Shown here: positions 35,784 to 64,000 of the stretch, piece after piece
How positions within the stretch are numbered: position 1 is the first letter of the stretch
How the letters are laid out: each line of letters begins with the position of its first letter
Position numbers and translations under genes: made by a program
Assembly: GCA_949156565.1 (NCBI GenBank)
Contig: CASCZI010000003.1
Span: forward strand, 80,713 to 144,712
From: an uncultured Alphaproteobacteria bacterium
Lineage (GTDB): Bacteria > Pseudomonadota > Alphaproteobacteria > Rs-D84
Reading direction: 5' to 3'
Length of the DNA: 64,000 bases
The notes under the pieces: model-generated
What the model saw: the letters and a program-made list of their open reading frames with translations, nothing else
What the model was told of the DNA's origin: nothing
Database searches by the model: none

Positions 35784-36917
35784 ATGGTAAACATTCGCAT
35801 TCGTGAAAAGACAAGTTCATGGCCCGGTTTTGTTGACCTGTTTTCAAACCTGGTTATTATTTTGATTTTTTTATTAATCGTGTTCGTATTCTTGTGGACC
35901 ACGACCAGCGTTTTTAACAAAACGTCGGGGGCCAAAACGGTCGCGGAATTGAAAAAAACCACCCAGGAACAGGCCGAAACCATCGCCCAAATGACCGCCG
36001 ATGAACAAGAGGCAAAGCGTCTATTGCTCTTGGCGCGTGCGGAATTAGAAAACCTGGAAAACGACAAAGTGGAATTAAGCAATGAGGTTAACGCCCTGGA
36101 CACAGAATTACAGGAAATCGATCTGAGTATCGAAGATCTGATTGCGGCGTATGAATCCAAGGTTTCCGAATTACAGGCGGCCGGTGTCGATATGCAGAAA
36201 AAGTTAAATGAAATGACGACCCAATTAAACCAAATGACGGTGGATAAAGAAAAAACCGCACAATTAGAACAGGAACGTCGCGAATTACAACAGCAAATGG
36301 ATGCCCAGCGGGTAAACCTGAGTGATCAATTGGCCAGTCTGCAGGCGGCACTGGATGCGGCCGAGGCCAAGGCCGCCGATCAAGAGGTTCAGTATGTTGA
36401 AATGTCAACACGTTTAAACAAAGCGTTGGCGGACAAGGTGGCGGAATTAAAAAATGTTGCCCAGTATCAGTCAGATTTTTACAAATCGATTAAGACGGCG
36501 CTGGGTGATCGCAGCACGATTCAGCCCGATGGCGATCGGTTTATCGTGTCCAGTGATATTTTGTTCCCCAGTGGGTCGTACACCCTGTCGCCCGAAGGAA
36601 AAAAACAACTGCGTCTGATTGCAAATGTCATCCGCGATCTGGAAAGCAAGATTCCGTCGGACGTGAACTGGATCATTCGGGTGGACGGGCATACGGATCG
36701 TAAGCCGATTATCCCCGGCACCAAAGGGTATCGTAATAATACTGAATTATCCCTGCGGCGTGCAACGGCGGTGGCGGATGAATTGGCACGCAATGGGGTG
36801 TCGAAACGGCGTCTGGTCCCCAGTGGATTTGGGGAAATGCATCCGGTTGAATTGGGTAATGACGCGGCCAGTATGCAAAAGAACCGTCGTATTGAATTGC
36901 AATTGACGAACAGATAA
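35784..36917 (+). CDS. OmpA/MotB-like peptidoglycan-binding stator partner
   Basis: 377 residues. One N-terminal membrane helix (VDLFSNLVIILIFLLIVFVF) is preceded by a short cytoplasmic tail. A long coiled coil (residues about 50-230) follows, then a C-terminal OmpA domain with FPSGSYTLSPEGKK, VDGHTDRKP and NRRIELQLTN. The plug Asp of MotB is represented by Asp in PGFVDLFSN. It anchors the channel to peptidoglycan. The pair resembles ZorAB and alphaproteobacterial ExbB/OmpA pairs; no ZorC/D or helicase gene is adjacent. Confidence 0.88.
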   Translation: MVNIRIREKTSSWPGFVDLFSNLVIILIFLLIVFVFLWTTTSVFNKTSGAKTVAELKKTTQEQAETIAQMTADEQEAKRLLLLARAELENLENDKVELSNEVNALDTELQEIDLSIEDLIAAYESKVSELQAAGVDMQKKLNEMTTQLNQMTVDKEKTAQLEQERRELQQQMDAQRVNLSDQLASLQAALDAAEAKAADQEVQYVEMSTRLNKALADKVAELKNVAQYQSDFYKSIKTALGDRSTIQPDGDRFIVSSDILFPSGSYTLSPEGKKQLRLIANVIRDLESKIPSDVNWIIRVDGHTDRKPIIPGTKGYRNNTELSLRRATAVADELARNGVSKRRLVPSGFGEMHPVELGNDAASMQKNRRIELQLTNR

Positions 36918-36987
36918 AAAAATCCCGCCACCGGGCCCCGCGGAAATTATAAATTTCCGTGGGTGGTACATACGGCGGGATTTTTTT
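36917..36987 (+). terminator. Terminator with a palindromic repeat module in its loop
   Basis: The outer stem AAATCCCGCC/GGCGGGATTT plus T7 is a normal terminator. Its loop is occupied by the GC-rich module CCCCGCGGAAATT/AATTTCCGTGGG (36931-36966) that recurs at 51601, 55457 and 63895. Confidence 0.8.
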
Positions 36988-37407
36988 ATTTAGTTTTAAG
37001 AGTGCATGTGTAGCGTTCAGATGCCCCCGTCACCCGGCACGTTTTTTATTTCCGTCATCCCCGGCCTGTGGCGGGGTCTATATTATAAAAATTTGTCGAC
37101 CACAGTGGGCCCGCGACCTGCGTCGTGATGACTGTGTATGTGGATGGGACCACATTGGGATGATGGTTCTTAGCATCTATTTAATTTAAATTCTCTAACC
37201 ATCCCGCCCATTGGGTCGCCCCCTGCGGAACGTGCACCCAGGCTTGTTCGGTGACAGTTCTTCTTCTGAAGCTCACCCACGGAAAGTTTCAATTTTCATA
37301 GGGACTGGGATAGGCTAGCCTGAAAAGTGGTGCTTTAAAATTTCGGTGGGTGGTTTCGGGATGGCGCCGGTGTCGGCGTGGATGTTCTTTGGTCCTATTC
37401 CTAATAA
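36988..37407. repeat. Gene-free region with degenerate palindromic repeat modules
   Basis: No convincing gene. Pieces of the palindromic family are visible: CACCCACGGAAA at about 37274, TTTCGGTGGGTGG at about 37341, a CAGGCTTGTTCGG block at about 37242 (as in the copy at 63860), and a GC-rich start near 37020. It looks like a decayed or rearranged copy of the element. Confidence 0.55.
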
Positions 37408-37432
37408 AAAAACCCGGTTTTCCCGGGATTTT
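37408..37432 (-). terminator. Intrinsic terminator of the 83-aa gene
   Basis: On the minus strand CCCGG/CCGGG pair across a short A-rich loop and are followed by T7. The reverse direction also has a T-run, so it may work both ways. Confidence 0.75.
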
Positions 37433-37684
37433 TTATTTCTTTTTTTTCACGGTCTTTTTGGCCGGTTTGGATTTGGCCGGCACCGGACGCGGCGCGGATG
37501 TGTGTTTGTATTCGCGATACAAAAATTCCACGCACACATAAACGACCAATGCCGATGCTGCCGTGATCAATCCCGGAATCAATCCGTCGGAAAAGACCGC
37601 AAACAAAACGATCGCCACCGCCAGCGTGATGGTGTACATGATATTTCGTGCCAAAACATTGACAATTTTTTCCAATACTTTCAT
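37433..37684 (-). CDS. Small membrane protein with Lys-rich tail
   Basis: 83 residues. Two adjacent hydrophobic segments (IMYTITLAVAIVLFAVF and LIPGLITAASALVVYVCV) are followed by a Pro/Lys tail ending in KKTVKKKK. Ribosome site GGGGGATT precedes the ATG. Function unknown; the basic tail should be cytoplasmic. Confidence 0.65.
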   Translation of the reverse strand: MKVLEKIVNVLARNIMYTITLAVAIVLFAVFSDGLIPGLITAASALVVYVCVEFLYREYKHTSAPRPVPAKSKPAKKTVKKKK

Positions 37685-37754
37685 TGATAATCCCCCTTTT
37701 GGATTTGTGAAGTACGTGTGAATTATATCAGAAAAGATCCCCAGGATTCAAGAC

Positions 37755-37780
37755 AAATAAAAAACCGTCCGGGGACGGTT
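37755..37780 (-). terminator. Intrinsic terminator of the 85-aa gene
   Basis: On the minus strand AACCGTCC/GGACGGTT is followed by TTTTTATTT. Confidence 0.85.
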
Positions 37781-37786
37781 TGGGGA

Positions 37787-38044
37787 TTATTTCGATTTCA
37801 TGTGTTTCTGTTCCATCAATTTATATAGTTTTTTGACCCGAGATCCAACAACACGACGGGTTCGATTATTTTTTTCTATGAAAAACATATATTCTTCGTC
37901 GGCCCTACAAGGAAATTTGTCTTTACACGATGTTAGAATAGCGTATTTTGTTTTTATTTCATAGCATTTGAGATAGTCATTCGCCTCGAATTCGGGTTTG
38001 TTGGTTGTGTTCTTAATCTGGCAATGAATATTTATAATATTCAA
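37787..38044 (-). CDS. Unknown 85-aa protein, start uncertain or frame disrupted
   Basis: The frame is open from a TTG at 38044, but the good ribosome site and ATG lie a few bases upstream in another frame, which ends after 13 codons (MTIFEYYKYSLPD). This may mean a frameshift near the 5' end, a coupled leader, or a true TTG start. The protein is basic at the C-terminus (RRVVGSRVKKLYKLMEQK) and has three Cys. No family is recognised. Confidence 0.5.
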   Translation of the reverse strand: MNIINIHCQIKNTTNKPEFEANDYLKCYEIKTKYAILTSCKDKFPCRADEEYMFFIEKNNRTRRVVGSRVKKLYKLMEQKHMKSK

Positions 38045-38067
38045 AGATGGTCATTTGTTTTCCCTTT

Positions 38068-38835
38068 TTAAAAAATCACCTGGCCGCCAAGACGTGCCGT
38101 CGACGGAATCGGGCCAAAGGATGAATTGCGGTTCAGATAGATATTGCCGGTCACCACAAAGTCCCCACAGAAATTTAACTGTTGGACGTCGCGCAGGAAC
38201 AGGTTCCCGTCAATATAAACCCCACAGGGCAGGGTAAAGCGCCGCATGTTCTGCAGATAAATATTCCCAAGAATCCGCGTTCCCGTCGTCAATGGGGTTT
38301 GGGTGTAATGGGTGTCGATAACAATGTCACCAAATAAATTATATGTCTTGGCCATCACCGGTGTGGTCGGCGTTTGTGTCGCATCCGATGTGGTGCGTAA
38401 TACCAATACATTGTTATGTCTTGCGGTGGACCGGGCACGAACCATGCGTGGGGCCGCGGCGTCCGTTACGGTTACCATGGGGCGGACCGGATTGGCCGGG
38501 GTGGTCGTAACCATCGGTGTTGTATCGATCATGACAACCGGTTGATGGCGGCCGCGCATAATGTCCATAATTAACATAGAAAATAAAACAATGATCGCCA
38601 CCAACAGCGTTAAGTTCACCATCGCAATTAAATCAATCCGACGTAACCATAACCATATGCGTGTTGCTATGTCACAGATTATACGTCCCATCGCGCGAAC
38701 CGGCCGAATCAGCCATTCAATGGCACGGCGAATTTTTGATTTGGGGGTCCCAGATTTTTTTGTGCCACGCGACATTGGGGATTGGGATCCGGCAACGCGA
38801 CGTGTCGCCAATTTCATTCGAAGATTTTTAAACAT
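38068..38835 (-). CDS. Single-pass membrane protein with repetitive C-terminal domain
   Basis: 255 residues. A basic N-terminal region precedes one membrane helix (LIAMVNLTLLVAIIVLFSML, about residues 70-90). A Thr/Pro-rich linker follows, then about 90 C-terminal residues of repeating short strands (GDIVID, GNIYLQ, GNLFLR, GNIYLN). The periodicity suggests a beta-solenoid like bactofilin, but no bactofilin signature is clear. The periplasmic location is inferred. Ribosome site AAGGTG precedes ATG 38835. Confidence 0.6.
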   Translation of the reverse strand: MFKNLRMKLATRRVAGSQSPMSRGTKKSGTPKSKIRRAIEWLIRPVRAMGRIICDIATRIWLWLRRIDLIAMVNLTLLVAIIVLFSMLIMDIMRGRHQPVVMIDTTPMVTTTPANPVRPMVTVTDAAAPRMVRARSTARHNNVLVLRTTSDATQTPTTPVMAKTYNLFGDIVIDTHYTQTPLTTGTRILGNIYLQNMRRFTLPCGVYIDGNLFLRDVQQLNFCGDFVVTGNIYLNRNSSFGPIPSTARLGGQVIF

Positions 38836-39082
38836 CAATCATCACCTTTTTGCTTTTCGTGATTAATATCCTAAAAATAATATTTGTCAATTAATTTGTC
38901 AAGTAAATTTATAAATAAAAGTTCATCATGAATAAATGCTTGATTTTTGATGGCAAAGGATATAGAGTGTTGTGCGCTGGGTTATCAGAACTGAGTACGG
39001 CGGCATGCATTTGGTCTTGTTCGCTTATAAGGGATCTGGGAAATATCTGGCACCTAAAAACCAAAAAACAAGGATTATAATA

Positions 39083-39715
39083 ATGGCAAGAGCAGGCGCA
39101 AAGCGCAGCACACGTAAATTAAAGATTAGCCGCCGTTTGGGTGTTAACCTGTGGGGCCAGGCGAAATCTCCGATTAACAAACGTAAATACAAACCGGGTC
39201 AACATGGGCCAACATCCCGTGGGGGCAATTCGTCCGATTATGCCAAGCAGATGCGGGCCAAGCAGACGTTAAAAGGTTATTATGGTAACGTTGGGGAAAA
39301 GAAATTCCGTGCCTATTATTTAGAAGCGGCGAATATGAAGGGCGACACACCGGATAATTTGATCGGGTTATTGGAACGTCGTTTGGATGCGGTCGTTTAT
39401 CGTGCAAAATTGGCACCGACCGTTTTTTCGGCCCGTCAATTGGTTAGTCATGGTCACATCTATGTTAACGACAAACGGGTAAAGATTGCATCGTATCAGG
39501 TCAAGCCAGGTGATGTTATCACCGTTGGTGAAAAGGCCAAACAGATGCCGTTGGTGGTATTGGCGTTGGAATCTGCCGAACGGATGACGCCGGATTATAT
39601 TACTGTCGACAGTGCGAATTTTGTTGCGACATTTGTTCGTGTGCCGTCATTCCAGGATGTACCTTATCCGGTACCCATGGCACCAGAATTGGTTGTCGAA
39701 TTTTATTCGCGTTAA
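39083..39715 (+). CDS. rpsD: 30S ribosomal protein S4
   Basis: 210 residues from ATG 39083 (the longer upstream frame is not coding). It has the S4 domain with [11 protein letters not shown] and [14 protein letters not shown], and an N-terminal RNA-binding part (KPGQHG). It nucleates 30S assembly by binding 16S rRNA and can regulate translation. It stands alone with its own terminator, not in the alpha operon. Confidence 0.97.
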
Positions 39716-39721
39716 TAAAGA

Positions 39722-39743
39722 CCGCCCATTCGGGCGGTTTTTT
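39722..39743 (+). terminator. Intrinsic terminator of rpsD
   Basis: CCGCCC/GGGCGG pair across ATTC and are followed by T6. Confidence 0.92.
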
Positions 39744-39754
39744 AATAATATGAC

Positions 39755-39782
39755 TTGATTTTATTAAAATAATCGTCATAAT
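39755..39782 (+). promoter_or_regulatory. Probable promoter of rpsF-rpsR
   Basis: TTGATT (39755-39760) and CATAAT (39777-39782) are 16 bp apart, about 60 nt before the rpsF ATG. Confidence 0.55.
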
Positions 39783-39840
39783 GGGTGGTGTTCCTGCTGG
39801 CGGCATGGGGTCGTCGGCTGTATAAACCATAGGAAATAAA

Positions 39841-40179
39841 ATGGCTTACTATGAAAGCGTCTTGGTTTTCCGCCAGGACCTGACCGAACCGCAGGTCAAA
39901 GAAAAAGCGGCAAAATTTGCAGATATTATTAAAGAGCTGAGGGGCAGTGTGAAATCCACAGAATTCTGGGGATTGAAAAATCTGGCCTATATCATTCGTA
40001 AAAACCGCAAGGCACATTATGTGATGATGAACATCGAATTGCCGGGTGACCAGATCAAAGAACTGGAACGTCGTTCCCGCATTGATGAAGATGTCATTCG
40101 CTTTTTAAATGTGCGTGTCGAAGAATTGGCGACAACACCGTCAATTATGATGAAAAAGAATAATGAAGAGGCAGAATAA
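39841..40179 (+). CDS. rpsF: 30S ribosomal protein S6
   Basis: 112 residues with the S6 pattern: N-terminal [32 protein letters not shown] and [11 protein letters not shown]. It binds 16S rRNA together with S18. It is coupled to rpsR by a one-base overlap (TAATG). Acidic C-terminal tail. Confidence 0.96.
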
Positions 40180-40406
40180 TGGCAGTCCGTGCAGCAATTT
40201 ATCGTAAAAAATCAAACCCGTTAAAGGGCAAGGTGATTGATTATAAAGATGTCAAAACATTGGCACATTATATCACCGAACGTGGTAAAATCGTCCCAAG
40301 CCGTATCAGTGGCGTTTCCCAAAAAGATCAACGTGCCTTGGCCACCGCGATCAAGCGTGCGCGTCATTTGGGGCTGTTGCCGTTTGTTCGCAACAACTTG
40401 GGGTAA
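40179..40406 (+). CDS. rpsR: 30S ribosomal protein S18
   Basis: 75 residues with [40 protein letters not shown] and ARHLGLLPF, the S18 signature. It forms a heterodimer with S6. It ends just before a 105-nt hairpin that separates it from rplI. Confidence 0.96.
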
Positions 40407-40511
40407 AAATTAAATTCTGTGGGCGTTGGTTGCGTTCACAGTTCCTCGTGTATGTCCAATACACGTCGGAACTGAAATGAACGCTTCCCACCCCCGCACA
40501 TAATTTAATTT
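40407..40511 (+). other. 105-nt near-continuous hairpin between rpsR and rplI
   Basis: Outer arms AAATTAAATT/AATTTAATTT, then GTGGG/CCCAC, GCGTTCA/TGAACGC, AGTTCC/GGAACT and GTGTAT/ATACAC stack around a 5-nt loop. T6 follows at once. It may act as a terminator, an RNase III site or an r-protein attenuator, or be an inserted palindromic element. It begins directly after the rpsR stop. Confidence 0.7.
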
Positions 40512-40566
40512 TTTATAATTGTGAAAATCTGGGATCAAATCCCTAACTTGAAAAAGGACAGATAAA

Positions 40567-41148
40567 ATGAAAGTTATTTTAACAGAAAAAATTACGAAAC
40601 TGGGGAATATTGGCGATACGGTCGAAGTGAAAACGGGTTTTGCCCGCAATTACTTGTTGCCGAATAACAAGGCCATGCGGTTCAGCAAAGAAAACATGGC
40701 TGTGTTTGAAACGAAAAAGGCCGAATTACAGGCGCGTCAAGATGCCGCCAAGAAATCGGCAGAATCCAATGTGGATGCGGTCAAGAATGCCAAATTGCAC
40801 ATGATCCGTCAGGCAGGGGATACCGGTCAATTGTATGGATCGGTGTCGTCACGTGATATTGCGCGTATGTTAAAAGAAATTGCGAACGTTGCGGTTACAT
40901 CGGCCCAGGTTATGTTGGGCAGCCCCATTAAATCTGTGGGTTGTTTTGACACCAAAATCGCCCTGCATCCCGATGTTATTGTTCCGGTAAAGGTTTATGT
41001 TGCCCAGACCCAAGATGAAATTGATGCCTTGGTTTCGGGTAAAGTTTTGACATTTGGGACCAAAAAAGTCGAAGAAGAACCCATTGTTGAAGAAGAAGTG
41101 GTCGAATCAGTGGCCGCGGCTGAAGGTGTTCCGGCAGATGCCGAATAA
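40567..41148 (+). CDS. rplI: 50S ribosomal protein L9
   Basis: 193 residues. The N-terminal L9 signature is intact: KVILTEKITKLGNIGDTVEV, GFARNYLLPN and KAMRFSKEN. The C-terminal domain has SVSSRDIARML and is extended by an acidic Glu/Val tail. It binds 23S rRNA and projects from the L1 region. It has its own good ribosome site (AAAGGAC). Confidence 0.96.
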   Translation: MKVILTEKITKLGNIGDTVEVKTGFARNYLLPNNKAMRFSKENMAVFETKKAELQARQDAAKKSAESNVDAVKNAKLHMIRQAGDTGQLYGSVSSRDIARMLKEIANVAVTSAQVMLGSPIKSVGCFDTKIALHPDVIVPVKVYVAQTQDEIDALVSGKVLTFGTKKVEEEPIVEEEVVESVAAAEGVPADAE

Positions 41149-41166
41149 GACAATCGACAATGGTCG

Positions 41167-41206
41167 ACCCCCGTGTAAACTTTGGTTGCACGGGGGTATT
41201 TTTTTA
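41167..41206 (+). terminator. Intrinsic terminator of rplI
   Basis: ACCCCCGTG/CACGGGGGT with a 13-nt loop is followed by an ATTTTTTT tract. Confidence 0.9.
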
Positions 41207-41230: not shown

Positions 41231-41385
41231 GATCAATGTTCAGAGTGCAGAGTTCAAATAAAAGACCACCCCGGGCTTTGCCCACCTCTCCGCAAAGGGG
41301 AACCTGGCCCGAACCAGCCTGAGTCTCAGTTCTCCTCCCTCGAGGGAGTAGCGGCGTAGCCGGGGAGGTGGTCTTTTTTTTAGAT
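41231..41385. repeat. Palindromic repeat element, short copy
   Basis: It runs from AAAGACCACC (41261-41270) to GGTGGTCTTT (41367-41376). Inside are the palindrome CTCCCTCGAGGGAG and a CGGCGTAGCCGG hairpin shared with the other copies; the AT hairpin modules are absent. The left flank carries the reverse complement of the CTGAACTCTGCAC box that flanks the copy at 55340. The right end plus T8 could terminate transcription. Confidence 0.8.
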
Positions 41386-41430: not shown

Positions 41431-41459
41431 TTGTGAAAAAAACCGCAAACAGGTATAAT
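41431..41459 (+). promoter_or_regulatory. Promoter of the Cys-rich gene at 41518
   Basis: TTGTGA (41431-41436) and TATAAT (41454-41459) are 17 bp apart. Confidence 0.7.
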
Positions 41460-41517
41460 TCCTGGGGTAGAGCAAAATACACTATGCCTAATCCAAAGGG
41501 TGGTTTTCGGGGGGCGG

Positions 41518-42288
41518 ATGAAGAAATTAACGGTATTTATATGTATTGGTTTGTGGTCTGGGACCCTGATGGGGGCAACATGCAAATCGGGTCAATACCT
41601 CTATAATGGAACGTGTACCGTATGTAATTCTGGGGCTGGACCGTATTATTGTCCGGGGGACGATACGCGACATGCATGTCCCACCACAGATACGGATTAC
41701 GATGCCTTAACCGGTTGGACAATGACATATAGGCAAGAAGGCACGTGGGCGCTATTGGGTGCAAACACTGATCGTCATTGTCGCAGTGGTAATCGCTTTA
41801 TTGATACCTATGGAAACAGTATTTTGACCGAATTTCCATTTAATGGGGAAAATTATTGGGGTACATCTGGGGATTATATTTATTATTACAAGGCCGGTCC
41901 AGGTATGTATTTATCAGAATACAGATCAACATCCGGGGACAAGTTATATCGTTATGCCAAGCAATGCACCAACGCCCCAGCGCACGCCCATTATACCGGT
42001 CCCGGCACGCCCGACGCCCCCGACGGCAGTGTCATGGATGCGAACGATTGTCCATGGGTATGCGACGATGGATATGGGCGTATTGGTAACGTATGTCATT
42101 CGTTATGCACGGCGGGTATTACAACAATTCACGCCGGTGATGTGGTGGCCACACTTTGGGCGACGCGGCATACGACACCGGCATTGGTTGTTCGTACCGC
42201 GGGTGGTATGTGCTATGCCAATTTAATAATTGGGACAGGGGCGGGGATTCGTGTGATCGTGGGGGACAAGACATATCGGGTGGAATAA
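41518..42288 (+). CDS. Secreted Cys-rich protein
   Basis: 256 residues with a signal peptide (LTVFICIGLWSGTLMGA) after ATG 41518, which follows GGGGGG. The mature part opens with CKSGQYLYNGTCTVC and holds further Cys modules (YYCPGDD, CPWVCDDGYGRIG, CHSLC). A non-Cys C-terminal domain of about 60 residues with VVRTAGGMCYANL follows. It belongs to the same broad class as the genes at 19006, 46106, 55614 and 57403. Surface or periplasmic location is inferred; function unknown. Confidence 0.72.
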   Translation: MKKLTVFICIGLWSGTLMGATCKSGQYLYNGTCTVCNSGAGPYYCPGDDTRHACPTTDTDYDALTGWTMTYRQEGTWALLGANTDRHCRSGNRFIDTYGNSILTEFPFNGENYWGTSGDYIYYYKAGPGMYLSEYRSTSGDKLYRYAKQCTNAPAHAHYTGPGTPDAPDGSVMDANDCPWVCDDGYGRIGNVCHSLCTAGITTIHAGDVVATLWATRHTTPALVVRTAGGMCYANLIIGTGAGIRVIVGDKTYRVE

Positions 42289-51439: not shown

Positions 51440-51745
51440 AAGGTGTTGAACTTAAACTCTCTTATATACACACTGAACACTGATATGGCCGATGCCGTGG
51501 GCAACCGTAGGTAAATCTACAAAAAAAGACCATCCCATCCGTATCACCCACAAAAAATTTTAATTTTTATGGGGCCCGATTTCGCGGTCACCCCGACCCC
51601 GGGCCCCGCGGAAATTGTTAAATTTCCGTGGGTGGGTTCTGGCGGGAGAACTTAAACTCAGCGTTGCACGGTGCAAGTTCTCCTCCCTCGTGGGAGTGCC
51701 CCAAAGGGGGGAGGCGGTCTTTATCTAAACTCTGATACGCGGTGC
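51440..51745. repeat. Palindromic repeat element, long copy
   Basis: It extends from AAAGACCATCCC (51525) to GGCGGTCTTT (51722). Modules in order: CCCACAAAAAATT/AATTTTTATGGGG hairpin, CCCGGGCCCCGCGGAAATT/AATTTCCGTGGG hairpin, CTCCTCCC block, and the closing inverted end. Flanks carry CACTGAACACTGATA (left) and CTAAACTCTGATA (right), matching boxes flanking other copies. No frame lies inside. Confidence 0.82.
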
Positions 51746-51814: not shown

Positions 51815-52915
51815 TTATGCGGCCTTTTTCATATCTTGTTTAATTCCGCGCAGATATTTGCGTAATTGATCGATCGGGACCAAAGAGCCATCACGTTTTT
51901 GGGCCGACCAATAATCCCATCCGTTAAAGCTGACACTGCGTTGCATTCGGGCGGCCATCACATGAATGGATGCCTTGCCATGTAAACTGTGGGTTAATTG
52001 GGCATCACGGGTGATCATAACACGTTCGCCGCGCGGACTGACCAATGTTTGGCCGACGTACAATAATCCGGCGTCAATTAATTCAGAAAATGCCACACGG
52101 ATTTCATCACGCTTGGGGGCGGTTACTTCGATATCTGATAAATCAATGGGTGCCACCGCGGCAACGCGTTCACGTGCGGCCGCAACATATGTTTCGTCAC
52201 GTTCCATTCCAATGAATTGGCGTCCCAATTCACGCGCGGCGGCGGCGGTGGTGCCACTGCCCATAAATGGGTCCAGAATGATATCGCCGGGTTTGGTTGA
52301 CGCCAAAATGACACGCCGCAACAAATCCATTGGTTTTTGTGTGTTATGTAAACTTTTTCCGTCGGTGCCCTTGATCCGTTCATCCCCCAGACAGATATTT
52401 ATATCCCAATCCGAACGCATTTGTTTTCCGCCATTTAATTTTTTCATTGTTTCATAATTAAATGTGTATTTTCCGGTCTTGTGCGGTGTTGCCCAGATTA
52501 ACGTTTCATGCGCGTTTGTAAATCGTGTTCCACGGAAATTGGGCATCGGATTCGTTTTGACCCAAACAATATCGTTTAAAATCCAAAACCCAAGGTCTTG
52601 TAAAATGGCCCCCACGCGGAAAATGTTATGATAACTGCCGATGACCCACATGGCGCCATCTGGTTTTAAAACACGACGACATTCGGTCATCCATTCGCGT
52701 GTAAATTTGTCATATGCGGCCGGACTGTCGAATGCGTCCCATGCATCCCGAACCGCGCGTGCGGCGGTTTGATCTTCGGGGCGATAAAGTGTCTTGGCCC
52801 CCAGTTGCAGATTATAGGGGGAATCCGCAAATACGGCATCAACCGATGCGTCCGGCAACCCCCGCATTAATTCGATACAATCGCCGGCCAAAATTTTATT
52901 TAGGTATTTGTCCAT
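51815..52915 (-). CDS. ccrM: CcrM-type DNA adenine methyltransferase
   Basis: 366 residues, colinear with Caulobacter CcrM: NHETLIW region, WVIGSYHNIFRVG, FWILNDIVW and GTRFTNAHET, with the SAM motif DPFMGSGTT near residue 220. The C-terminal DNA-binding extension ends WDYWSAQKRDGSLVPIDQLR. CcrM methylates GANTC late in the cell cycle. The catalytic motif reads DSPYN rather than the usual DPPYN, and HNTQKP replaces HPTQKP. Probably active, but these changes deserve testing. Confidence 0.92.
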   Translation of the reverse strand: MDKYLNKILAGDCIELMRGLPDASVDAVFADSPYNLQLGAKTLYRPEDQTAARAVRDAWDAFDSPAAYDKFTREWMTECRRVLKPDGAMWVIGSYHNIFRVGAILQDLGFWILNDIVWVKTNPMPNFRGTRFTNAHETLIWATPHKTGKYTFNYETMKKLNGGKQMRSDWDINICLGDERIKGTDGKSLHNTQKPMDLLRRVILASTKPGDIILDPFMGSGTTAAAARELGRQFIGMERDETYVAAARERVAAVAPIDLSDIEVTAPKRDEIRVAFSELIDAGLLYVGQTLVSPRGERVMITRDAQLTHSLHGKASIHVMAARMQRSVSFNGWDYWSAQKRDGSLVPIDQLRKYLRGIKQDMKKAA

Positions 52916-53084: not shown

Positions 53085-53594
53085 ATGAGATGTCCATACT
53101 GCAATTCCACTGACAGTCGCGTGACGGATTCCCGTCCCGACATCGAAGACGCGATTATTCGTCGTCGTCGGGTCTGTAATCAATGTGGTGCGAAATTTAC
53201 CACCGTTGAACGGGTTCAGATGCGTGATTTGTTAATTCGAAAAAACAGTGGTAAAATCGAACAATTTGATCGGGAAAAATTAAGACGCAGCATCAAATTG
53301 GCGTGCCGTAACCGCGAGGTTAGCGATGAACAAATCGAAAAATTAGTGACATCTATTCACCGGCGTCTGGAAACGGAAACAACCGATGATTCTGTATCCA
53401 GTGTGTTGGTCGGGCAAATGGTGTCGGATTCGTTATTGAATCTGGATCCGATTGCGTTTGTGCGATTTGTGTCGGTGTATCGGAAATTTTCCAAGATTTC
53501 AGATTTTAAAAAGATTATTAATCAAATCCCAGAGGTTGACGGTGACGCCAATTGTGTTGCCGAATGCGATCTGCCAAAAACATCTTTGTTTTAA
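53085..53594 (+). CDS. nrdR: Transcriptional repressor NrdR
   Basis: 169 residues from ATG 53085. N-terminal zinc ribbon (MRCPYCNS, then RRRRVCNQCGAKFTT) and an ATP-cone (LLIRKNSGKIEQFDREKL). It senses ATP/dATP and represses ribonucleotide reductase genes. ATG 53085 matches the invariant MRCPYC start. Followed closely by the transglycosylase gene. Confidence 0.96.
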   Translation: MRCPYCNSTDSRVTDSRPDIEDAIIRRRRVCNQCGAKFTTVERVQMRDLLIRKNSGKIEQFDREKLRRSIKLACRNREVSDEQIEKLVTSIHRRLETETTDDSVSSVLVGQMVSDSLLNLDPIAFVRFVSVYRKFSKISDFKKIINQIPEVDGDANCVAECDLPKTSLF

Positions 53595-53602
53595 TGTGTA
53601 AA

Positions 53603-55327
53603 ATGATGAAAAAATTGATTCTGTTATTTTGTGCATGCACCATAACGTATGGTGCGATTGCCGCCGATATTCCCACCGTATTAACAGATACGGACGCGGC
53701 CATTTATCGGGAAATTTTTGATTTACAATCAAATGAAAAAATAGATGCCGCCCAACGTCTGGATGACAAATTGATGGATAATTTGTTAATGGGCGAAGTA
53801 TTATATCAGCGTTATTTTTCCAAAACATATCGGACGCGGGGCCGTGAAATTGTGTCGTGGATGGAAAAATATTATAACACGCCGGGCGCGGTGCGTATGG
53901 CCAATTTGGCCAAAATTAAACAGGCGACCGTTCGCGCACCCAAATTACCCAAAACCATCAGTGGCACGTCCATCGAAACCGCGCAATCGGAAACATGGAC
54001 CGAAAAAAATTATACCGGTGATGTGGGTGATAAAATCAAAAAATTTAAAAAGGCCATCCGCACAGGCAGTACGAAAACCGCCCGGCTGATTCTTGAAGAC
54101 GGGGGATTTAAACGTCGGCTTAGCGAATCTGACTATGGGCGCTTGGCGGGGCGTTTGGCATATGTTTATTATACCAACGGTGAATTTGAATTGGCCAAAA
54201 AATGGGGATTTGTTGCGTCTGATGCGGGTTCTGAATATGGGTTATGGACGATGGGTTTGCTGTATTACAAAGAAGAAAAATATCGCGAATCGCAAAAATA
54301 TTTTGCCCAGATTCTGGATCTGGATCAAATTAATGATGCCCGCAAGACAGAGGCGGCGTTCTGGGCCGGGCGCGCGGCCGATGCGAATGATGAACGACGG
54401 GTGGCAAAAAAATTCTGGGCGATTGGCGCCGCATATCCCATGACATTTTATGGCGCATTGTCGGCCACCATGTCCGGTAATCGGCCACGTTATGAATTTT
54501 TTGATATGGAATGTACCGATGATGATCTGGATGCGATTGCCGCGACACGATATGGGAAAATTGCCTTGGGGCTGATCCAGGTGGGCCAAAAAGATCGTGC
54601 CGAAGAATATTTGAAACTGATGGTGACGTCGGGTGCGTCGGATCGGACGTTGCATGCAATAAATTCGGTGGCCACGGCATATGGTTTACCACGTGTATCG
54701 ATTCAGGTGTCGGGTGTCGTCCGGGATCGGGGATTGATGGGATTGGATGATAACATTATTTATTCGGCGCAATATCCATTGCCGGATTGGGAACCCATGG
54801 GTGGGTGGTCAATTGACCGGGCATTGTTATTGGCGATTACAAAACAAGAAAGCGGATTTAAACCCAACGCCAAATCAACCGCGGGGGCGAATGGATTGAT
54901 GCAAATCATGCCCGGTACCGCCAAGCGTGTTGCCCGTCGTTCCAAAATGAAATTTTCAGATATTGATATGTCAAAACCGGAACATAACATGTTCTTGGGG
55001 CAACAGCATATTGTGGATTTATTGGCGCACCCCAACATCAATAATAATATCATCAAAATGTTGGTTTCATATAATGCCGGCATGGGGAACATGTTGAAAT
55101 TTGAAAAAACGTTTGATACGTCGGATCCGTTGCTTTATATCGAAAGTTTCCCGGCATACGAAACACGTGGGTATATTAAACGCGTGATATCCAATTTATG
55201 GTTGTATCGGGCGCGTTTGGATCAACCGTTACGCAGTATGCGCGAATTGGCCGATGGTCAATGGCCCATGTACAACAGTGAAGATGCCTATGTCCAGCAA
55301 CAGATTGCCCATCGCATGGCAATATAA
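53603..55327 (+). CDS. Soluble lytic murein transglycosylase
   Basis: 574 residues. Signal peptide (KLILLFCACTITYGAIA), a long alpha-solenoid U/L-like region, then an SLT domain with catalytic Glu in TKQESGF (about residue 415), AGANGLMQIMPGTAK and VSYNAGMGNM. It cleaves peptidoglycan glycan strands to 1,6-anhydro products. The frame extends upstream into nrdR, but the signal peptide fixes the start at 53603 or 53606. Related to E. coli Slt70. Confidence 0.93.
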   Translation: MMKKLILLFCACTITYGAIAADIPTVLTDTDAAIYREIFDLQSNEKIDAAQRLDDKLMDNLLMGEVLYQRYFSKTYRTRGREIVSWMEKYYNTPGAVRMANLAKIKQATVRAPKLPKTISGTSIETAQSETWTEKNYTGDVGDKIKKFKKAIRTGSTKTARLILEDGGFKRRLSESDYGRLAGRLAYVYYTNGEFELAKKWGFVASDAGSEYGLWTMGLLYYKEEKYRESQKYFAQILDLDQINDARKTEAAFWAGRAADANDERRVAKKFWAIGAAYPMTFYGALSATMSGNRPRYEFFDMECTDDDLDAIAATRYGKIALGLIQVGQKDRAEEYLKLMVTSGASDRTLHAINSVATAYGLPRVSIQVSGVVRDRGLMGLDDNIIYSAQYPLPDWEPMGGWSIDRALLLAITKQESGFKPNAKSTAGANGLMQIMPGTAKRVARRSKMKFSDIDMSKPEHNMFLGQQHIVDLLAHPNINNNIIKMLVSYNAGMGNMLKFEKTFDTSDPLLYIESFPAYETRGYIKRVISNLWLYRARLDQPLRSMRELADGQWPMYNSEDAYVQQQIAHRMAI

Positions 55328-55339
55328 ATGATTCCCCCC

Positions 55340-55605
55340 AAGACCACCCCGTCGGTATCACCCCCAAAAATTTCCAATTTTTGTGGGGCCCGATTTCGCG
55401 CCCACCCCTCCACCGGAGGGGAACTTTTCTCTGTTTTTTAATTCCACGCCCCGGGCCCCACGGAAATTGTTAAATTTCCGTGGGTGGATTCTGGCGGGGG
55501 AACTTTGCAACGGCGTGGCACAAAGACAAGTTCTCCTCCCTCGAGGGAGTACCGGCATAGCCGGGGAGGTGGTCTTTTACCTGAACTCTGCACGCTGAAC
55601 ACTGA
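55340..55605. repeat. Palindromic repeat element, most complete copy
   Basis: Inverted ends AAGACCACCCC (55340-55350) and GGTGGTCTT (55568-55576). Inside, in order: CCCCCAAAAATTT/AATTTTTGTGGGG hairpin, CGATTTCGCG, CTCCACCGGAGG, CCCCACGGAAATT/AATTTCCGTGGG hairpin, palindrome CTCCCTCGAGGGAG and CCGGCATAGCCGG. The CTGAACTCTGCACGCTGAAC box follows on the right. It starts 12 nt after the transglycosylase stop. Confidence 0.85.
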
Positions 55606-55613
55606 TAGATGAT

Positions 55614-58327: not shown

Positions 58328-58951
58328 ATGAAAGAAAACCCAGATTTTTCATTGGAATCGCAATATGCGGGGATGATTGTGGCCGGTTGTGACGAAGCGG
58401 GGCGTGGACCATTGTGTGGACCGGTGGTTGCGGCCGCGGTTATTTTGCCGGACCGCGTTATGGACATTCCGGTTATTATTCGTGATTCTAAGCAGATGTC
58501 CCAAACGGCCCGTGCGACGGCGCGGGAATGGATATGTACCCATGCCGATTGGGCCGTTGGGATATGTTCACCGGCCGAAATCGACGAATTAAATATTCTC
58601 TGGGCGTCGATGCGGGCGATGGAACGGGCGGTATCTGCATTAAAGACGCGGCCCGACATCACATTGGTTGATGGAAATCGCGTTCCGGGGGGATTTAACG
58701 GATGTGCGGTGGTTCATGGTGACGCGCGTTCTTTATCCATTGCGGCGGCATCCATTATTGCCAAGGAAACGCGTGATGATATCATGTGCGATCTGGCACG
58801 GAAATATCCCATGTATGGATGGGAAAAAAACGCGGGATACCCGACCGCGGCCCATTTGGCGGCAATTGAAAAATTTGGAATCAATGAACACTATCGGCGG
58901 TCATTTGGCCCCGTTAAGAAAAGGATAGAAAATGAAACTGCGTACGATTGA
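58328..58951 (+). CDS. rnhB: Ribonuclease HII
   Basis: 207 residues from ATG 58328 (ATG 58310 is a possible start six codons earlier). Active-site motif AGCDEAGRGPLCGPVVAAAV, then RDSKQMS, LVDGN and AASIIAKETRDD. It removes RNA from RNA-DNA hybrids, including misincorporated ribonucleotides. It overlaps pgk by 20 nt. Confidence 0.95.
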   Translation: MKENPDFSLESQYAGMIVAGCDEAGRGPLCGPVVAAAVILPDRVMDIPVIIRDSKQMSQTARATAREWICTHADWAVGICSPAEIDELNILWASMRAMERAVSALKTRPDITLVDGNRVPGGFNGCAVVHGDARSLSIAAASIIAKETRDDIMCDLARKYPMYGWEKNAGYPTAAHLAAIEKFGINEHYRRSFGPVKKRIENETAYD

Positions 58952-60101
58952 TAACATAGATGTTCGTGGCAAGTATGTGTTGTTGCGTGATGATTTTAAT
59001 GTTCAAATTGTTGATGGAAAAATTACCGATGCCTTTCGCATTGATCAGAGTCGCCCCACAATCGAACGTTTACGGGCGGGCGGGGCACGCGTGGTTATTG
59101 TTTCGCATTTGGGCCGGCCCAAGGGGACACGTAACATGGAATATTCGATGACATTGGTTGCCCAATATTTGGGAATACCGCTGATTCCGGATGCGCTGGC
59201 GCGGGATTTTATGCCCACAATGCAAGATGGGGATGTGGTGTTGTTGGAAAACGTGCGATTTTATCCGGGCGAAGAATCAAATGATCCGGAATTCGCGGCG
59301 CAATTAGCTAATGGATTTGATATGTATGTCAATGATGCGTTTGCCGTATCGCATCGTGCCCATGCCAGTACGGTCGGCGTTGCCAAAATATTACCATCAT
59401 ATGCGGGGGATTTGTTGGCATCGGAAATACGCAACCTGGACGCGGTGATGGAAAATCCACGTCGGCCATTATTATCCATTATCGCCGGCAGCAAGGTGTC
59501 AACCAAGATTGGTGTATTAAAGGCATTGGCCAAATTATCTGATGCGATGATTATTGGTGGGGCATTGGGCACGACGTTTAACTATGCCTTGGGGGACAAT
59601 GTGGGAAATTCGTTATACGAATCGGATCAGAAACAAACCGCATTGGACATTTTGGCATTTGCCCGGGAAAATAATTGCAATGTGTTATTGCCCTTGGACA
59701 AGGGGGTCGCCAAAGAATTTCGTCGTGATGCCGAACGTGTTAACAAGCATTTTGACCAAATCGAATCGGATGATGTTATTATGGATGCGGGTATTGAAAC
59801 AACGGCACGGAATGTGGCCGCCGTTGATGATGCCGCCACGGTCATTTGGAATGGTACGGTTGGAATGGCCGAATGGATGCCCACGTGGAGTTATGGGACA
59901 TTCACATTGGCACATGCGATTGCGAATCGGACACGTGATGGGAAATTGCAAAGCATTGTTGGTGGTGGCGATACCGTTGCCGCATTAGAAGCGTCGGGGA
60001 CCAAATCGGATATATCATATGTGTCGACCGGTGGCGGGGCATTTCTTGAATATGTTGAAGGTCGTGTTTTACCCGGCATAGATATTTTGGCCGATCGTTA
60101 A
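58932..60101 (+). CDS. pgk: Phosphoglycerate kinase
   Basis: 389 residues. LLRDDFNVQI, the SHLGRPKG motif, LLENVRFYPGEE, DAFAVSHRAHAS and the C-terminal GGGDTVAALE are in place. The GGGMANTF-type loop reads GGALGTTFNYA. It makes ATP from 1,3-bisphosphoglycerate in glycolysis. The start ATG lies inside rnhB with ribosome site AAAGGA, so the two are coupled. Confidence 0.97.
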   Translation: MKLRTIDNIDVRGKYVLLRDDFNVQIVDGKITDAFRIDQSRPTIERLRAGGARVVIVSHLGRPKGTRNMEYSMTLVAQYLGIPLIPDALARDFMPTMQDGDVVLLENVRFYPGEESNDPEFAAQLANGFDMYVNDAFAVSHRAHASTVGVAKILPSYAGDLLASEIRNLDAVMENPRRPLLSIIAGSKVSTKIGVLKALAKLSDAMIIGGALGTTFNYALGDNVGNSLYESDQKQTALDILAFARENNCNVLLPLDKGVAKEFRRDAERVNKHFDQIESDDVIMDAGIETTARNVAAVDDAATVIWNGTVGMAEWMPTWSYGTFTLAHAIANRTRDGKLQSIVGGGDTVAALEASGTKSDISYVSTGGGAFLEYVEGRVLPGIDILADR

Positions 60102-60123
60102 TTTGATCTTGGTATCTAGACAT

Positions 60124-60163
60124 TGCGCGTTATGGATTTATTAAATCTAGGCGCGCATTTTTA
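60124..60163 (+). terminator. Intrinsic terminator of pgk
   Basis: TGCGCG/CGCGCA with an inner GATTT/AAATC pair and a following T5. Confidence 0.8.
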
Positions 60164-60253
60164 TATTAAAAAAATTTGCGTTTTTTCAAATTTTGTTTAT
60201 GAATACAATCCTACGGTTAAAGTACTTTTTGATAAAAAGTAAGAGGGGAGAGA

Positions 60254-61798
60254 ATGAAAGCCATATTCAGGCTGTGCGTCGGCACGGTCATGATGTTTTA
60301 TGCGGCATATGCACATGCCGCAGATGCCAATATCATTGCCACAAAAGCCGATGATTATGCCAACCTTGCTGCAAATACACGTATTCCTAAAAATGAAAAA
60401 TTGGATTATAGACAAATTGAGATTAAACGTAGTTTATATCTGGAAAATAATGGATATGTCACAGGTGATATTTTTGTTTCCAATGGCAGTCATTTGGTCA
60501 TTCAAAATTCTGGATTAATTACCGGAACGATTCATTTGGCAGATAACGCGTATATGACCCAATTGGTCACGGGGCCATCGGATTTGACCAATCTGCGGTG
60601 TGGGCAAAGATGCACATTATTGGTGCGTGGGGCATCGGACGTACGTATCTCTGATATTATGGCGATTGGGGCGGCCGCCGACAAAATTATTTTAATGGAT
60701 GCCCATGTGATCTTAGATGTGCCGGTTGATGCCAATCGGCGTCCTATTGAAACCGCCGGCGAAGTGATTTTTGCATTAGATGGCAGTATTGATATCAAAG
60801 ATGGGCAAACGATTTTATCAGGGGTGAATTTTGGCGGTGACGCGATTATCAGCGATCCCAACAGCGACGGCAGTTATACCGTAACGGTAAAGGGCGACGT
60901 CGTGGGCACGGATTACAATGGCATTATTGATTATGCGCGCGTCATTACCCCACAGGAAGCAGAACTGATCACAATTTTAATGAATGCATATCCGGATGAT
61001 AAATTGCCTGGTGCCATTATGGCGGCCCGTTCGAATGCCCAGATTCGCGATATTTTGGACAATTCGGTTCATATTCATCCCATTAAATTAATGAACGTGC
61101 CGCGGACATTGGATATGTTTGAAATGAATATGCCGACAACATGGGATACCGTGGTTGGGATTGCGCCGTTTTCGATTTTTGGATCTGATATGGATATTTA
61201 TGGGGGGCGAATGCATTCCGGGTTGTCAATGGGACCGGTGTATCTGGGAATGGCCGGTTATTACGGCGTATTTGGATACGAAGATCAGATTAATAAATTC
61301 GATGGCATGGTATATGGTGCCAATTTACGTGCAGGATTAAACATGGGATATGTTTGGTTTGATGCGGTTGGGGGAATGTCAATAACCGATTTTGATGTGG
61401 GGCCTGTGATTGACGGTGATGAAATTTCATATGATCCGCGTGGACAAAGTATATATGGGCGTGGGGATATCGGCACCCGTTTTATGATTGGACGTGATTT
61501 TTCCATTATGCCTTTTGTTGGGATCGGGACACATTGGTCAAAGATATTAGATAATTCAGACAGTGATTTGTTTGGCCGTGTCGGGGCGCAATTGGGATAT
61601 GTCTATCATGGTGATGGAATGAATTACAGCTATAGTATGCGCGGTGCATATGGGACCAATAATGCCATCGATGCGGCATTGGATATTTCGATATTGTCGG
61701 TCGAAGATGGGGCCGGTGGCGGTGTGGCATTGGGGGTGCATCATGATGATTGGGATACATCCTATTTATTCAAGATTCATTTCCATATGCAATTTTAA
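60254..61798 (+). CDS. Autotransporter-like outer-membrane protein
   Basis: 514 residues. Signal peptide (FRLCVGTVMMFYAAYAHA), then residues about 45-240 with repeating short strands (GYVTGDIFVSNGS, GLITGTIHLAD) suggesting a beta-helix. A C-terminal barrel of about 240 residues ends in Phe (FHMQF). The layout is that of a small type V autotransporter with a short passenger. Ribosome site AGAGGGGAGA. Substrate or adhesion role unknown. Confidence 0.82.
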   Translation: MKAIFRLCVGTVMMFYAAYAHAADANIIATKADDYANLAANTRIPKNEKLDYRQIEIKRSLYLENNGYVTGDIFVSNGSHLVIQNSGLITGTIHLADNAYMTQLVTGPSDLTNLRCGQRCTLLVRGASDVRISDIMAIGAAADKIILMDAHVILDVPVDANRRPIETAGEVIFALDGSIDIKDGQTILSGVNFGGDAIISDPNSDGSYTVTVKGDVVGTDYNGIIDYARVITPQEAELITILMNAYPDDKLPGAIMAARSNAQIRDILDNSVHIHPIKLMNVPRTLDMFEMNMPTTWDTVVGIAPFSIFGSDMDIYGGRMHSGLSMGPVYLGMAGYYGVFGYEDQINKFDGMVYGANLRAGLNMGYVWFDAVGGMSITDFDVGPVIDGDEISYDPRGQSIYGRGDIGTRFMIGRDFSIMPFVGIGTHWSKILDNSDSDLFGRVGAQLGYVYHGDGMNYSYSMRGAYGTNNAIDAALDISILSVEDGAGGGVALGVHHDDWDTSYLFKIHFHMQF

Positions 61799-61815
61799 TC
61801 CCGGAAATATACACA

Positions 61816-61853
61816 TGACAACCCTTGTATTATATCAAGGGTTGTCATTATAT
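61816..61853 (+). terminator. Hairpin terminator
   Basis: TGACAACCCTTG/CAAGGGTTGTCA, a 12-bp perfect stem with an 8-nt loop, followed by TTATATAT. It ends the autotransporter gene. Confidence 0.7.
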
Positions 61854-61931
61854 ATGACATATATCATAAATTCGCGAATCGGATTTTTGTGTGGTATAGT
61901 TTCATATAAAATGAATAAAAAGGGTTAAATA

Positions 61932-62513
61932 ATGTCTTTAATACCAATGGTTATCGAAGAATCCCCGCGCGGCGAACGGTCGTTTGATATTTATTCACGA
62001 TTGCTGCGTGATCGGATTATTATGTTACAGGGTGAAATTAACGAAACAATGGCCAATACCATTATCGCCCAGATGTTGTTTTTGGAATCGGAAAATCCAA
62101 ATGCCGATATTTCACTTTATATCCAAAGTCCTGGCGGCGGCGTCTATGCCGGTTTGGCGATTTTGGATACGATGCAATATATCAAGCCAAACGTCGCAAC
62201 CATCGGTATGGGAATGGTGGCGTCGATGGCATCGATCCTCTTGGCGGCCGGGGAAAAAGGAAAACGCAGCGTCTTGCCCAATACGCGTGTCATGATCCAT
62301 CAACCCCATGGTGGTGCCCAGGGCCAGGTGACCGATATCGAAATTATCGCGCGTGAGTACCAGGAATTAAAACAACGGGGGGCGAAATTGTTGGCGGATT
62401 TCAGTGGCCAGCCGGTTGAAAAATTAATAATCGATATGGAACGCGACAATTACATGACCGCACCCCAGGCCAAGGAATATGGTCTGGTGGATAATATTTT
62501 GCAAAGAAAATAA
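61932..62513 (+). CDS. clpP: ATP-dependent Clp protease proteolytic subunit
   Basis: 193 residues. Catalytic Ser in [10 protein letters not shown] (about residue 97), His in [11 protein letters not shown] (about 122) and Asp in the following acidic segment. The Ser loop reads [10 protein letters not shown] instead of the usual GQAASM. It forms the tetradecamer degraded-protein chamber. 17 nt upstream of clpX. Confidence 0.96.
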
Positions 62514-62530
62514 ATTTCGGGGGATTCGGC

Positions 62531-63805
62531 ATGACTGATGATAAGAAAACACGTAAACCCGCATCGGAAAATGACAAAAATACCCAGTTTTGCAGCTTTT
62601 GTGGCAAGGCCGTGTATGAGGTAAAAAAACTGGTCAGTGGTCGTAATGTCTGCATTTGTGATGAATGCATTAATTTGTGTAATGATATTATGGCCGACGA
62701 TCGCGCGGTGGAAATTGATCGGGATACATCAAAATTGCCCACCCCGTCCAAGATTTATAAATTCTTGAACGATTATGTCATCGGCCAAGATGATGCGAAA
62801 CGCACATTGGCGGTGGCGGTGTATAATCATTACAAGCGCCATGGGGCCGCGGCGGCATCAAATGTTGAAATTCAAAAATCAAACGTTTTGATGATTGGAT
62901 CGACCGGCACCGGAAAGACGTTATTTGCACAAACGTTGGCGCGTGTTTTGGATGTCCCATTTGCGATTGCCGACGCCACCACATTGACCGAGGCCGGATA
63001 CGTCGGCGAAGATGTTGAAAGTGTCTTAACACGTTTGTTACAGAATGCAAATTTCGATGTGGATCGTGCCCAAAAAGGTATTATTTATATCGACGAAATT
63101 GATAAAATTTCCCGTAAATCTGAAAATCCGTCTTTGACCCGTGATGTATCCGGCGAAGGTGTGCAACAGGCATTGTTAAAATTGATTGAAGGCACCGTTG
63201 CCAATGTTCCGGCCAGTGGTGGTGGACGCAAGCATCCCGGCGAAGCTACAGTTCAATTAGATACCAGCAAGATTTTATTCATCTGTGGCGGGGCATTCGA
63301 TGGATTAAACAAAATTATTGGTGCCCGAAAAAACGCCCGTGCGGGAATTGGTTTTGGGGCCGCGGTTGAATCCAAAAAAACGCGTGAAGAACGCGACTAT
63401 ATCGCCGATGTTGAACCCCAAGATTTGGTGAAATTTGGTATTATTCCAGAATTGATTGGGCGTTTACCCATCATTACAACATTGCGCGAATTGGATGCGG
63501 ATGCGTTGGTAAAGATTTTGACAGAACCCAAGAATGCATTGGTCAAACAATATGCCGCAATGCTGGATATGGATGGGATCAAATTAACAATTACAGATGA
63601 TGGATTGCGTGCGATCGCAGATGTGGCCGTGGCACGTAAAACGGGGGCGCGTGGGTTACGCAGTATTTTGGAAAAAATCTTGTTACAGCCGATGTTTGAT
63701 GCACCCGATAAAAAAGATCTGGCCGAAATTGTGATTGATGCCGATGTTGTTAACGGGAAAAAGCCGCCCGTTGAAATCCACGCCGACACAAAGAAAGCCG
63801 CATAA
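62531..63805 (+). CDS. clpX: ATP-dependent Clp protease ATP-binding subunit ClpX
   Basis: 424 residues. N-terminal zinc-binding domain ([10 protein letters not shown], then [10 protein letters not shown]), Walker [13 protein letters not shown] (about residue 125), Walker [11 protein letters not shown], the pore-loop GYVGEDVE and sensor 2 region [10 protein letters not shown]. It unfolds substrates for ClpP. Ribosome site GGGGGATT. In the operon with clpP. Confidence 0.97.
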
Positions 63806-64000
63806 AACACCCCCCCCGGCTACGCCGGTACTCCCTCGAGGGAGGAGAACTGAGACTCAGGCTTGTTCGGTCCAGGTTCCCCTCCGGGAACCCACCCACG
63901 GAAATTTAACAATTTCCGTGGGGCCCGGGGTCGGGGTGGGCGCGAAATCGGGCCCCGCAAAAATTGAAAATTTTTGGGGGTGATACCGACGGGGTGGTCT
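63806..64000. repeat. Palindromic repeat element, inverted copy, cut by window edge
   Basis: It starts right at the clpX stop with CGGCTACGCCGG and CTCCCTCGAGGGAG, then CTCAGGCTTGTTCGG, CCCACGGAAATT/AATTTCCGTGGGG and CCCCGCAAAAATT/AATTTTTGGGGG, and ends GGGGTGGTCT at the edge. The module order is the reverse of the copy at 55340, so it is inserted in the other orientation. Confidence 0.85.

Follow-up and report, generated by a model that had tools for sequence, protein, structure and literature searches.

Several described systems resemble the one reported here in part. Rickettsia palindromic elements (RPEs) are reported to lie in frame within coding genes, and the same source associates Correia miniature inverted-repeat transposable elements (MITEs) with promoters and with inversion (PMC10969869). 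Among DNA invertases, Mpi of Bacteroides fragilis is described as inverting 13 regions (PMC4747536). Here we describe a dispersed family of palindromic elements, together with a set of short, predicted invertible switches of surface-protein genes found next to many of its copies, in a small alphaproteobacterial genome. The starting point was a stretch of 64,000 nucleotides (the window), bases 80713-144712 of contig C3 (assembly GCA_949156565.1). We think it probable, on balance, that the palindromic copies are short and non-autonomous, and that they derive from the same kind of mobile element as longer relatives in which a DUF559 endonuclease gene lies between like palindromic ends.

In form, the family shares with the Rickettsia elements a similar size, palindromic make-up and an in-frame position in an alphaproteobacterial gene, here queA. 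It differs in that one of 37 loci is in frame and in that longer relatives of the present element carry DUF559. Like Correia-type MITEs it is short, has inverted ends and many copies and is associated with sigma70-type promoters, whereas its promoter lies outside the end box and it has no known transposase sharing its ends. The rhizobial RIME repeats are also palindromic and intergenic and differ in sequence.

The source genome (G000) comprises 1,071,069 bases in 10 contigs, with a completeness of 95.8%; its contigs are numbered C1-C10, and relatives are designated G002, G003, G006, G010, G011, G012 and G026. The organism is probably an alphaproteobacterium of the gut, within order Rs-D84. The nearest named homologues of its Mpi-type invertase come chiefly from metagenome-assembled genomes of gut Alphaproteobacteria, including Candidatus Enterousia excrementavium, and Enterousia is described as a member of Rs-D84 with genomes of about 1 Mb (PMC12306168).

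With copy C of the window as a BLAST query (E up to 10), we recovered 131 pieces on all 10 contigs of the source genome, so the family is not confined to the segment in which it was noticed. The 9-base end box GGTGGTCTT occurs 33+33 times in this genome versus 9+8 times for the reversed control word. The family amounts to 38 loci in 1.07 Mb (37 grouped by hand, plus copy D), a count that omits two single-hairpin loci (window position 36926 and G000:C2:129134) and a degenerate remnant at 37010-37350. The inverted ends AAGACCACC/GGTGGTCTT and the many dispersed copies are hallmarks of MITEs. Among 20 relatives, element DNA gave weak, partial matches in 5. Beyond the end boxes there is mostly either a CTGAACTCTGCACTCTGAACACTG tail or a GATCCCATACGGGGG stretch running into a promoter; when 66 end boxes were sorted by their flanks, 28 fell into each sort, 5 into both and 15 into neither, some of the boxes being chance matches. 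Overall the family is real, dispersed and MITE- or RPE-like. The proposal in the preliminary description that the repeats are MITE-like, non-autonomous and dispersed is borne out by the number of loci, the inverted ends, the lack of an internal gene in the window copies and presence or absence at the queA site.

The link to DUF559 comes from queA. The copy at G000:C8:7444-7556 lies within the queA frame and leaves a 390-aa open reading frame (ORF); it is the sole locus among the 37 whose frame stays open 120 nt past both sides. At the same protein position, QueA homologues are empty, or carry a short palindromic peptide, or carry DUF559 between two palindromic peptides. The best 120 of 7,988 matches were listed and 112 of them parsed: 81 have at most 12 residues at the site, 8 have 13-25, 19 have a DUF559 insert and 4 have another long insert. 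Element-type peptides were found, with a loose pattern, in 16 of the 19 DUF559-bearing inserts. Two of the four other long inserts (P0128 and P0200) have a precomputed PF04480 assignment, and two (P0095 and P0098) contain the element only. The right DNA junction of the G026 DUF559 form (GGGGTGGTCTTGTGTTATCTGACC) and that of the short form in the source genome (GGGGTGGTCTTTTGTTATCTGACC) differ by a single base. The DUF559 protein matches PF04480 with 94-98 bits, and its closest solved structure is 3hrl, an 'Endonuclease-Like Protein' (E 2.9e-18); DUF559 has been described as Vsr-like. Among the papers listed in our literature search, none was seen to link DUF559 with palindromic elements.

DUF559 genes lie between repeats elsewhere as well. 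The congener G002 has a free-standing DUF559 gene that is bordered on either side by element-like modules (by eye), and its two flanks share an inverted repeat at least 12 nt long. A tblastn search with the DUF559 protein matched 39 plasmid records, from which eight loci were chosen by hand. A repeat of at least 12 nt common to both flanks was present at 6 of these 8 loci, compared with 5 of 198 control positions in the same DNA. The repeats are inverted in Deinococcus (45 nt), Pseudanabaena (two loci, 40 and 28 nt) and Picosynechococcus PCC 7003 (13 nt), and only direct in Picosynechococcus PCC 7002 (23 nt) and Sphingobium (13 nt). Two Sinorhizobium DUF559 loci have palindromic flanks by eye; such repeats are known as RIME in rhizobia. 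In Deinococcus sp. QL22 and in Shinella, the neighboring sequence is present without the DUF559 block. DUF559 genes of cyanobacteria, Deinococcus and Sinorhizobium are among those with repeats common to both flanks (L384, L386, L387, L390, L391, L392); the Deinococcus gene lies between paaD and paaZ.

The window itself holds four copies and two remnants, found where they had been reported, except that the earlier start of 41231 takes in a tail outside the end box. Copy A (41262..41375, forward strand; 114 nt; AAGACCACC ... GGTGGTCTT) is a short form recovered as a family member by BLAST, and lacks both A/T-core hairpins. Its outer tail, of the TTCAGAGTGCAGAGTTC type (41232..41261, forward), pairs inversely with the outer tail of copy C (CTGAACTCTGCACGCTGAACACTGAT; 55577..55606, forward), the match covering 39 nt including the end boxes at 90%. 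Copy B (51526..51721, forward) has a 172-aa ORF on one side and, on the other, a convergent gene for an N6/N4 DNA methyltransferase (51815-52915, reverse); CTCCCTCGTGGGAG and CCCCAAAGGGG replace its CCGGC hairpin, and its terminal sequence is GGCGGTCTT. Copy C (55340..55576, forward), directly 3' of an SLT-domain gene (53552-55327), is the full form with both A/T-core hairpins. Copy D (63804..64000, reverse) starts at and overlaps the clpX stop codon, lacks a clean GGTGGTCTT box and reaches the end of contig C3, which is also the end of the window. A lone hairpin module (36926..36966, forward) lies in the loop of an intrinsic-terminator-like repeat (36919-36990) behind an OmpA-domain gene (by eye), and repeat comparison within the window places a degenerate remnant at 37236..37353 (reverse).

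The copies are mosaic. The best-matching pairs are 83-96% identical across 48-125 nt, and the 50-nt right ends of copies A and B just 60%. The module order proposed in the preliminary description stands overall, although A, B and D do not contain all modules; the copies are free of genes, as it had said. Both orientations occur, also as it had said. Copies B and C begin 137 and 13 nt, respectively, past the last base of a stop codon. Copy A begins 114 nt past the gene for ribosomal protein L9, whose own terminator (41167-41197) precedes the element. Folding is stronger than in shuffled sequences (copy A as RNA, z -3.07; copy C as DNA, z -5.12), and no Rfam family reaches its gathering score at the window copies. 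In G006 (L082, L087, L093-L101) like modules occur, by eye, in a different order, with AAGTTC/GAACTT outside and GGTTAACC at the center, as if circularly permuted with respect to the element of the source genome.

Many copies adjoin a promoter. A pattern ending in TATGCC gave 33 matches in the examined parts of the source genome; 8 were removed by eye and 25 kept as switch promoters. An element end box lies at most 110 bp upstream of the -35 box in 15 of the 25, where simple arithmetic gives a chance expectation of about 0.2, and in G026 the same end box precedes the promoter at 6 of 16 loci inspected by eye. Element and switch cassette have therefore probably spread jointly, by duplication. 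In the window, a promoter of this type (TTGTGA-N17-TATAAT; 41431..41459, forward) lies 56 nt past copy A and reads toward a gene for a predicted secreted, Cys-rich surface protein of 256 aa (41518..42288, forward) that is related to the switch-controlled proteins and matches nothing in Pfam or NCBIfam at E 0.001. Between them is a single recombination-type site, GCCTAATCCAAAGG-GT-GGTTTTCGGGGGGC (41486..41515, forward). Since a second site and an invertible segment are missing here, this locus is predicted to be locked ON.

The enzyme that shares its ends with the element, for which the preliminary description had suggested looking for a transposase, is best sought in a nuclease: DUF559 sits between matching ends in the relatives and matches an endonuclease-like structure, and no classical transposase emerged, PF01797 being the one such family sought. 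The element likely spreads by a homing-like repair route, in which DUF559 would cleave sites that lack the element and mending of the break would bring a copy in; short copies would then rely on an enzyme encoded elsewhere. Several observations weigh against this reading. The shared-site evidence comes from the single gene queA, and a search of the window and the further stretches examined, about 0.23-0.26 of the 1.07 Mb, gave no DUF559 gene, the remainder being unsearched for PF04480. The Synechocystis and Azospirillum plasmid loci (L383, L389) have no common 12-nt flank repeat, and strict criteria for hairpins (arms of 8, loop of 3-25) gave none within 300 nt of the G002 DUF559 gene or of 4 of the 8 plasmid genes. 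Across phyla the likeness of the DUF559 flanks is one of style and may not reflect common descent. Comparison of the end-box flanks yielded neither target-site duplications nor an exact left boundary; conservation extends past the end boxes, so the true ends of the element are uncertain. The collection of named genomes, from which the source genome itself was perhaps excluded, contains no exact match to a 23-mer of the element, and a 21-mer is absent from viral contigs; on these grounds we reject the identity of the exact element across phyla. The DUF559 endonuclease could also be cargo or a passenger rather than the mobilizer.

That last possibility is part of a competing account, which we consider rather unlikely, in which the copies are MITEs of an ordinary DDE-type transposon, lost or not sought, and DUF559 is a mere passenger of some of them. 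The inverted ends, the 38 loci and their mostly intergenic placement would suit such an origin, and the mobile-element enzymes sought in the source genome were PF01797, PF00589 and PF00239 only. However, DUF559 is enclosed by ends of this type in queA, in G002 and in three further groups of bacteria, which exceeds what is expected of a chance passenger. Spread without a dedicated enzyme, through gene conversion, template switching at palindromes or duplication of promoter cassettes, seems to us a good deal less probable. It would account for the near-identical element-promoter-switch blocks at C1:170705 and C5:21431, for the element ends at switch promoters and for the mosaic modules with their differing order in G006, yet the promoter scan gave no switch promoter at over half of the 38 loci, and the in-frame queA copy and the block-free sites elsewhere resemble insertion.

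Two further explanations fare worse. The folding, the A-run and T-run at the ends and the position of window copies behind stop codons might point to intergenic RNAs or bidirectional terminators that are under selection and immobile, an option we hold to be very unlikely. The preliminary description had likewise suggested that the elements supply terminators, but copy A, the one copy scanned, follows the complete L9 terminator and none was called inside it; the mosaic modules, the single-module remnant and the copy inside queA also fit poorly with a conserved RNA, as does the lack of an Rfam match. Palindromic, mainly extragenic and numerous copies are equally a feature of repetitive extragenic palindromes (REPs) and bacterial interspersed mosaic elements (BIMEs) mobilized by a REP-associated tyrosine transposase (RAYT, a Y1 transposase), the other identity put forward earlier. 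We reject it as having almost no likelihood, because PF01797 was found in none of 21 genomes of the genus and order, including the source genome, versus 5 of 14 control genomes. Kinship with a DUF559-bearing mobile element stays our preferred reading of the family.

The invertase switches are the more surprising result. Most switch promoters are followed downstream by a pair of related sites at a spacing of 84-86 bases, whose inner halves are inverted; the site motif GCCTAATCYAAA occurs 49 times in the source genome and its control not at all, and the switch motifs gave 0 matches in viral contigs. We parsed 66 switch loci in seven genomes (source genome 24, G026 32, five others 10), leaving uncounted those cut by a contig end or with an unrecognized second half. 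The 2-bp cores of the paired sites are reverse-complementary in all 66; 10,000 shuffles gave 24 on average and 37 at most. The core pairs are GA/TC (35), AC/GT (16), GT/AC (8), AA/TT (6) and TT/AA (1), with no palindromic core. Because the inner halves are inverted repeats as well, the complementary cores show that the repeat continues through a core that varies between loci, as for inverted sites of serine recombinases; they do not demonstrate recombination.

A candidate enzyme for the dispersed switches of the source genome is encoded on contig C9 (G000:C9:26256-26885; L149:1498-2130, L181). This 210-aa serine recombinase belongs to the Mpi family NF009949 (303.1 bits, cut-off 272). Among 26 genomes, at least two motif matches per genome were found in 8 of 8 with an Mpi homologue of at least 81% identity, in 4 of 12 at 76-80% and in 0 of 6 at 75% or below; the identity classes were set after the counts were known, and a control motif gave 0-2 matches per genome. 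The gene adjoins a subtilisin-like autotransporter ORF. Its relatives in G003, G011 and G012 adjoin the same ORF, named by eye, and that of G010 does not. Two large serine recombinases were also seen in the source genome. One ORF (window 9223-10725) overlaps an opposite-strand tRNA-Arg gene (10681-10757), resembling an integrated element; the other, of 532 aa (G000:C2:38390-38845, stretch L148), has a CcrB-like similarity of 134.9 bits, far under the family cut-off.

The segments of about 85 bp carry a terminator, a promoter, or a Shine-Dalgarno sequence with a start codon, and in G026 also half a signal peptide. We defined type S loci as those in which one orientation has a Shine-Dalgarno interaction of -6 kcal/mol or lower plus an in-frame start codon. 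By this definition 38 of the 66 loci are type S (source genome 15, G026 23), with the start 16 or 17 codons ahead of the core in all 38 and nothing better than -3 in the opposite orientation in 35; among shuffled segments, 506 of 7,600 orientations (6.7%) qualified. As assembled, 5 of the source-genome loci are ON and 10 OFF, and in G026 1 is ON and 22 OFF. At 23 of 23 loci in G026 the N-terminus of the ON form surpasses that of the OFF form in hydrophobicity, one instance being MRISGIFILGILLYPNVG..., which is fused to an AxA-like end within the gene, so that a signal peptide split by the recombination site is predicted there. In the source genome this holds for 0 of 15 type S loci, since there the gene retains a signal peptide of its own, and the split-signal reading is therefore limited to G026. 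Terminator-like hairpins are predicted in one orientation at 21 loci, 4 of which are type S, and in both orientations at none. At L205, L218 and L228 of G011 the segment promoter is, by eye, directed away from the gene. No domain exceeded its cut-off in a Pfam scan of the switch-controlled proteins scanned; an ephrin-receptor-like domain came nearest in P0036, with 18.6 versus 23.1 bits.

We infer that the segments flip. At G026:C19:318 (L355), the unequal inner half-sites are exchanged at the 2-bp core when compared with L348 and other sister loci, and this locus is predicted to be a switch in the inverted state, whose ON form supplies a Shine-Dalgarno sequence, a start codon and half a signal peptide. 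The tandem paralogues C6:83091 and C6:84684 have oppositely oriented segments. Ten of the 20 contig ends of the source genome (on C1, C2, C4, C5, C8, C9 and C10) are no more than about 60 nt away from a switch motif, and C3 ends inside copy D; the former fits inversion, since mixed sequence interrupts assembly, though repeats by themselves would suffice. Both orientations are seen between loci and not within one locus of one strain. A length of about 85 bp is short for a serine-recombinase synapse, which weighs against inversion, and template switching between inverted repeats could be another route to a flipped segment. An RNA-only start-codon switch fails for the inner segments found in both orientations and for the swapped half-sites of L355; we keep it as a possibility for the class I loci of the source genome. 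P0029, which is 100% identical to the product of C1:170581, is encoded on a contig of different length and has an OFF-type start where the source copy is ON, was not counted as evidence of inversion, because the choice of the gene caller could explain it.

Switching of N-termini by inversion has precedents. In Ureaplasma MBA and Mycoplasma pulmonis Vsa, DNA inversion joins differing N-termini to surface proteins; the present loci are alike in switching an N-terminus and unlike in that each gene has its own segment of about 85 bp rather than exchanging with silent genes. In the cwpV switch of Clostridioides difficile, an invertible segment lies between promoter and gene and forms a terminator in one orientation; it is served by RecV, a tyrosine recombinase that is also named for the flagellar switch, at few loci, unlike the Mpi-type serine enzyme and dozens of loci here. 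The Mpi regulon of B. fragilis is similar in its serine recombinase of the same NCBIfam, its many dispersed inverted sites and its surface genes. It differs in that the segments here, about 85 bp from core to core and presumed to flip, in many cases hold a terminator or a Shine-Dalgarno sequence, start and N-terminus instead of a promoter. A literature search, beyond whose reach most subscription papers lie, found no description of a switch with a segment of about 85 bp and a split signal peptide.

Taken together, we see evenly balanced chances that one Mpi-type invertase flips segments of about 85 bp genome-wide as a surface-protein lottery, in which at least 23 segments in one species would decide translation and export through ribosome-binding site, start codon and half a signal peptide, and that the switches move together with palindromic elements belonging to a class of DUF559-endonuclease mobile elements that spans phyla. 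Short palindromic repeats without a known enzyme are common in bacterial genomes, and DUF559 between palindromic repeats in four unrelated groups (the present lineage, rhizobia, Deinococcus and cyanobacteria) offers them a testable parent. If true, the switches would constitute a large phase-variation regulon in an uncultured gut lineage with a reduced genome, with unusually short segments and the switching of a split signal peptide.

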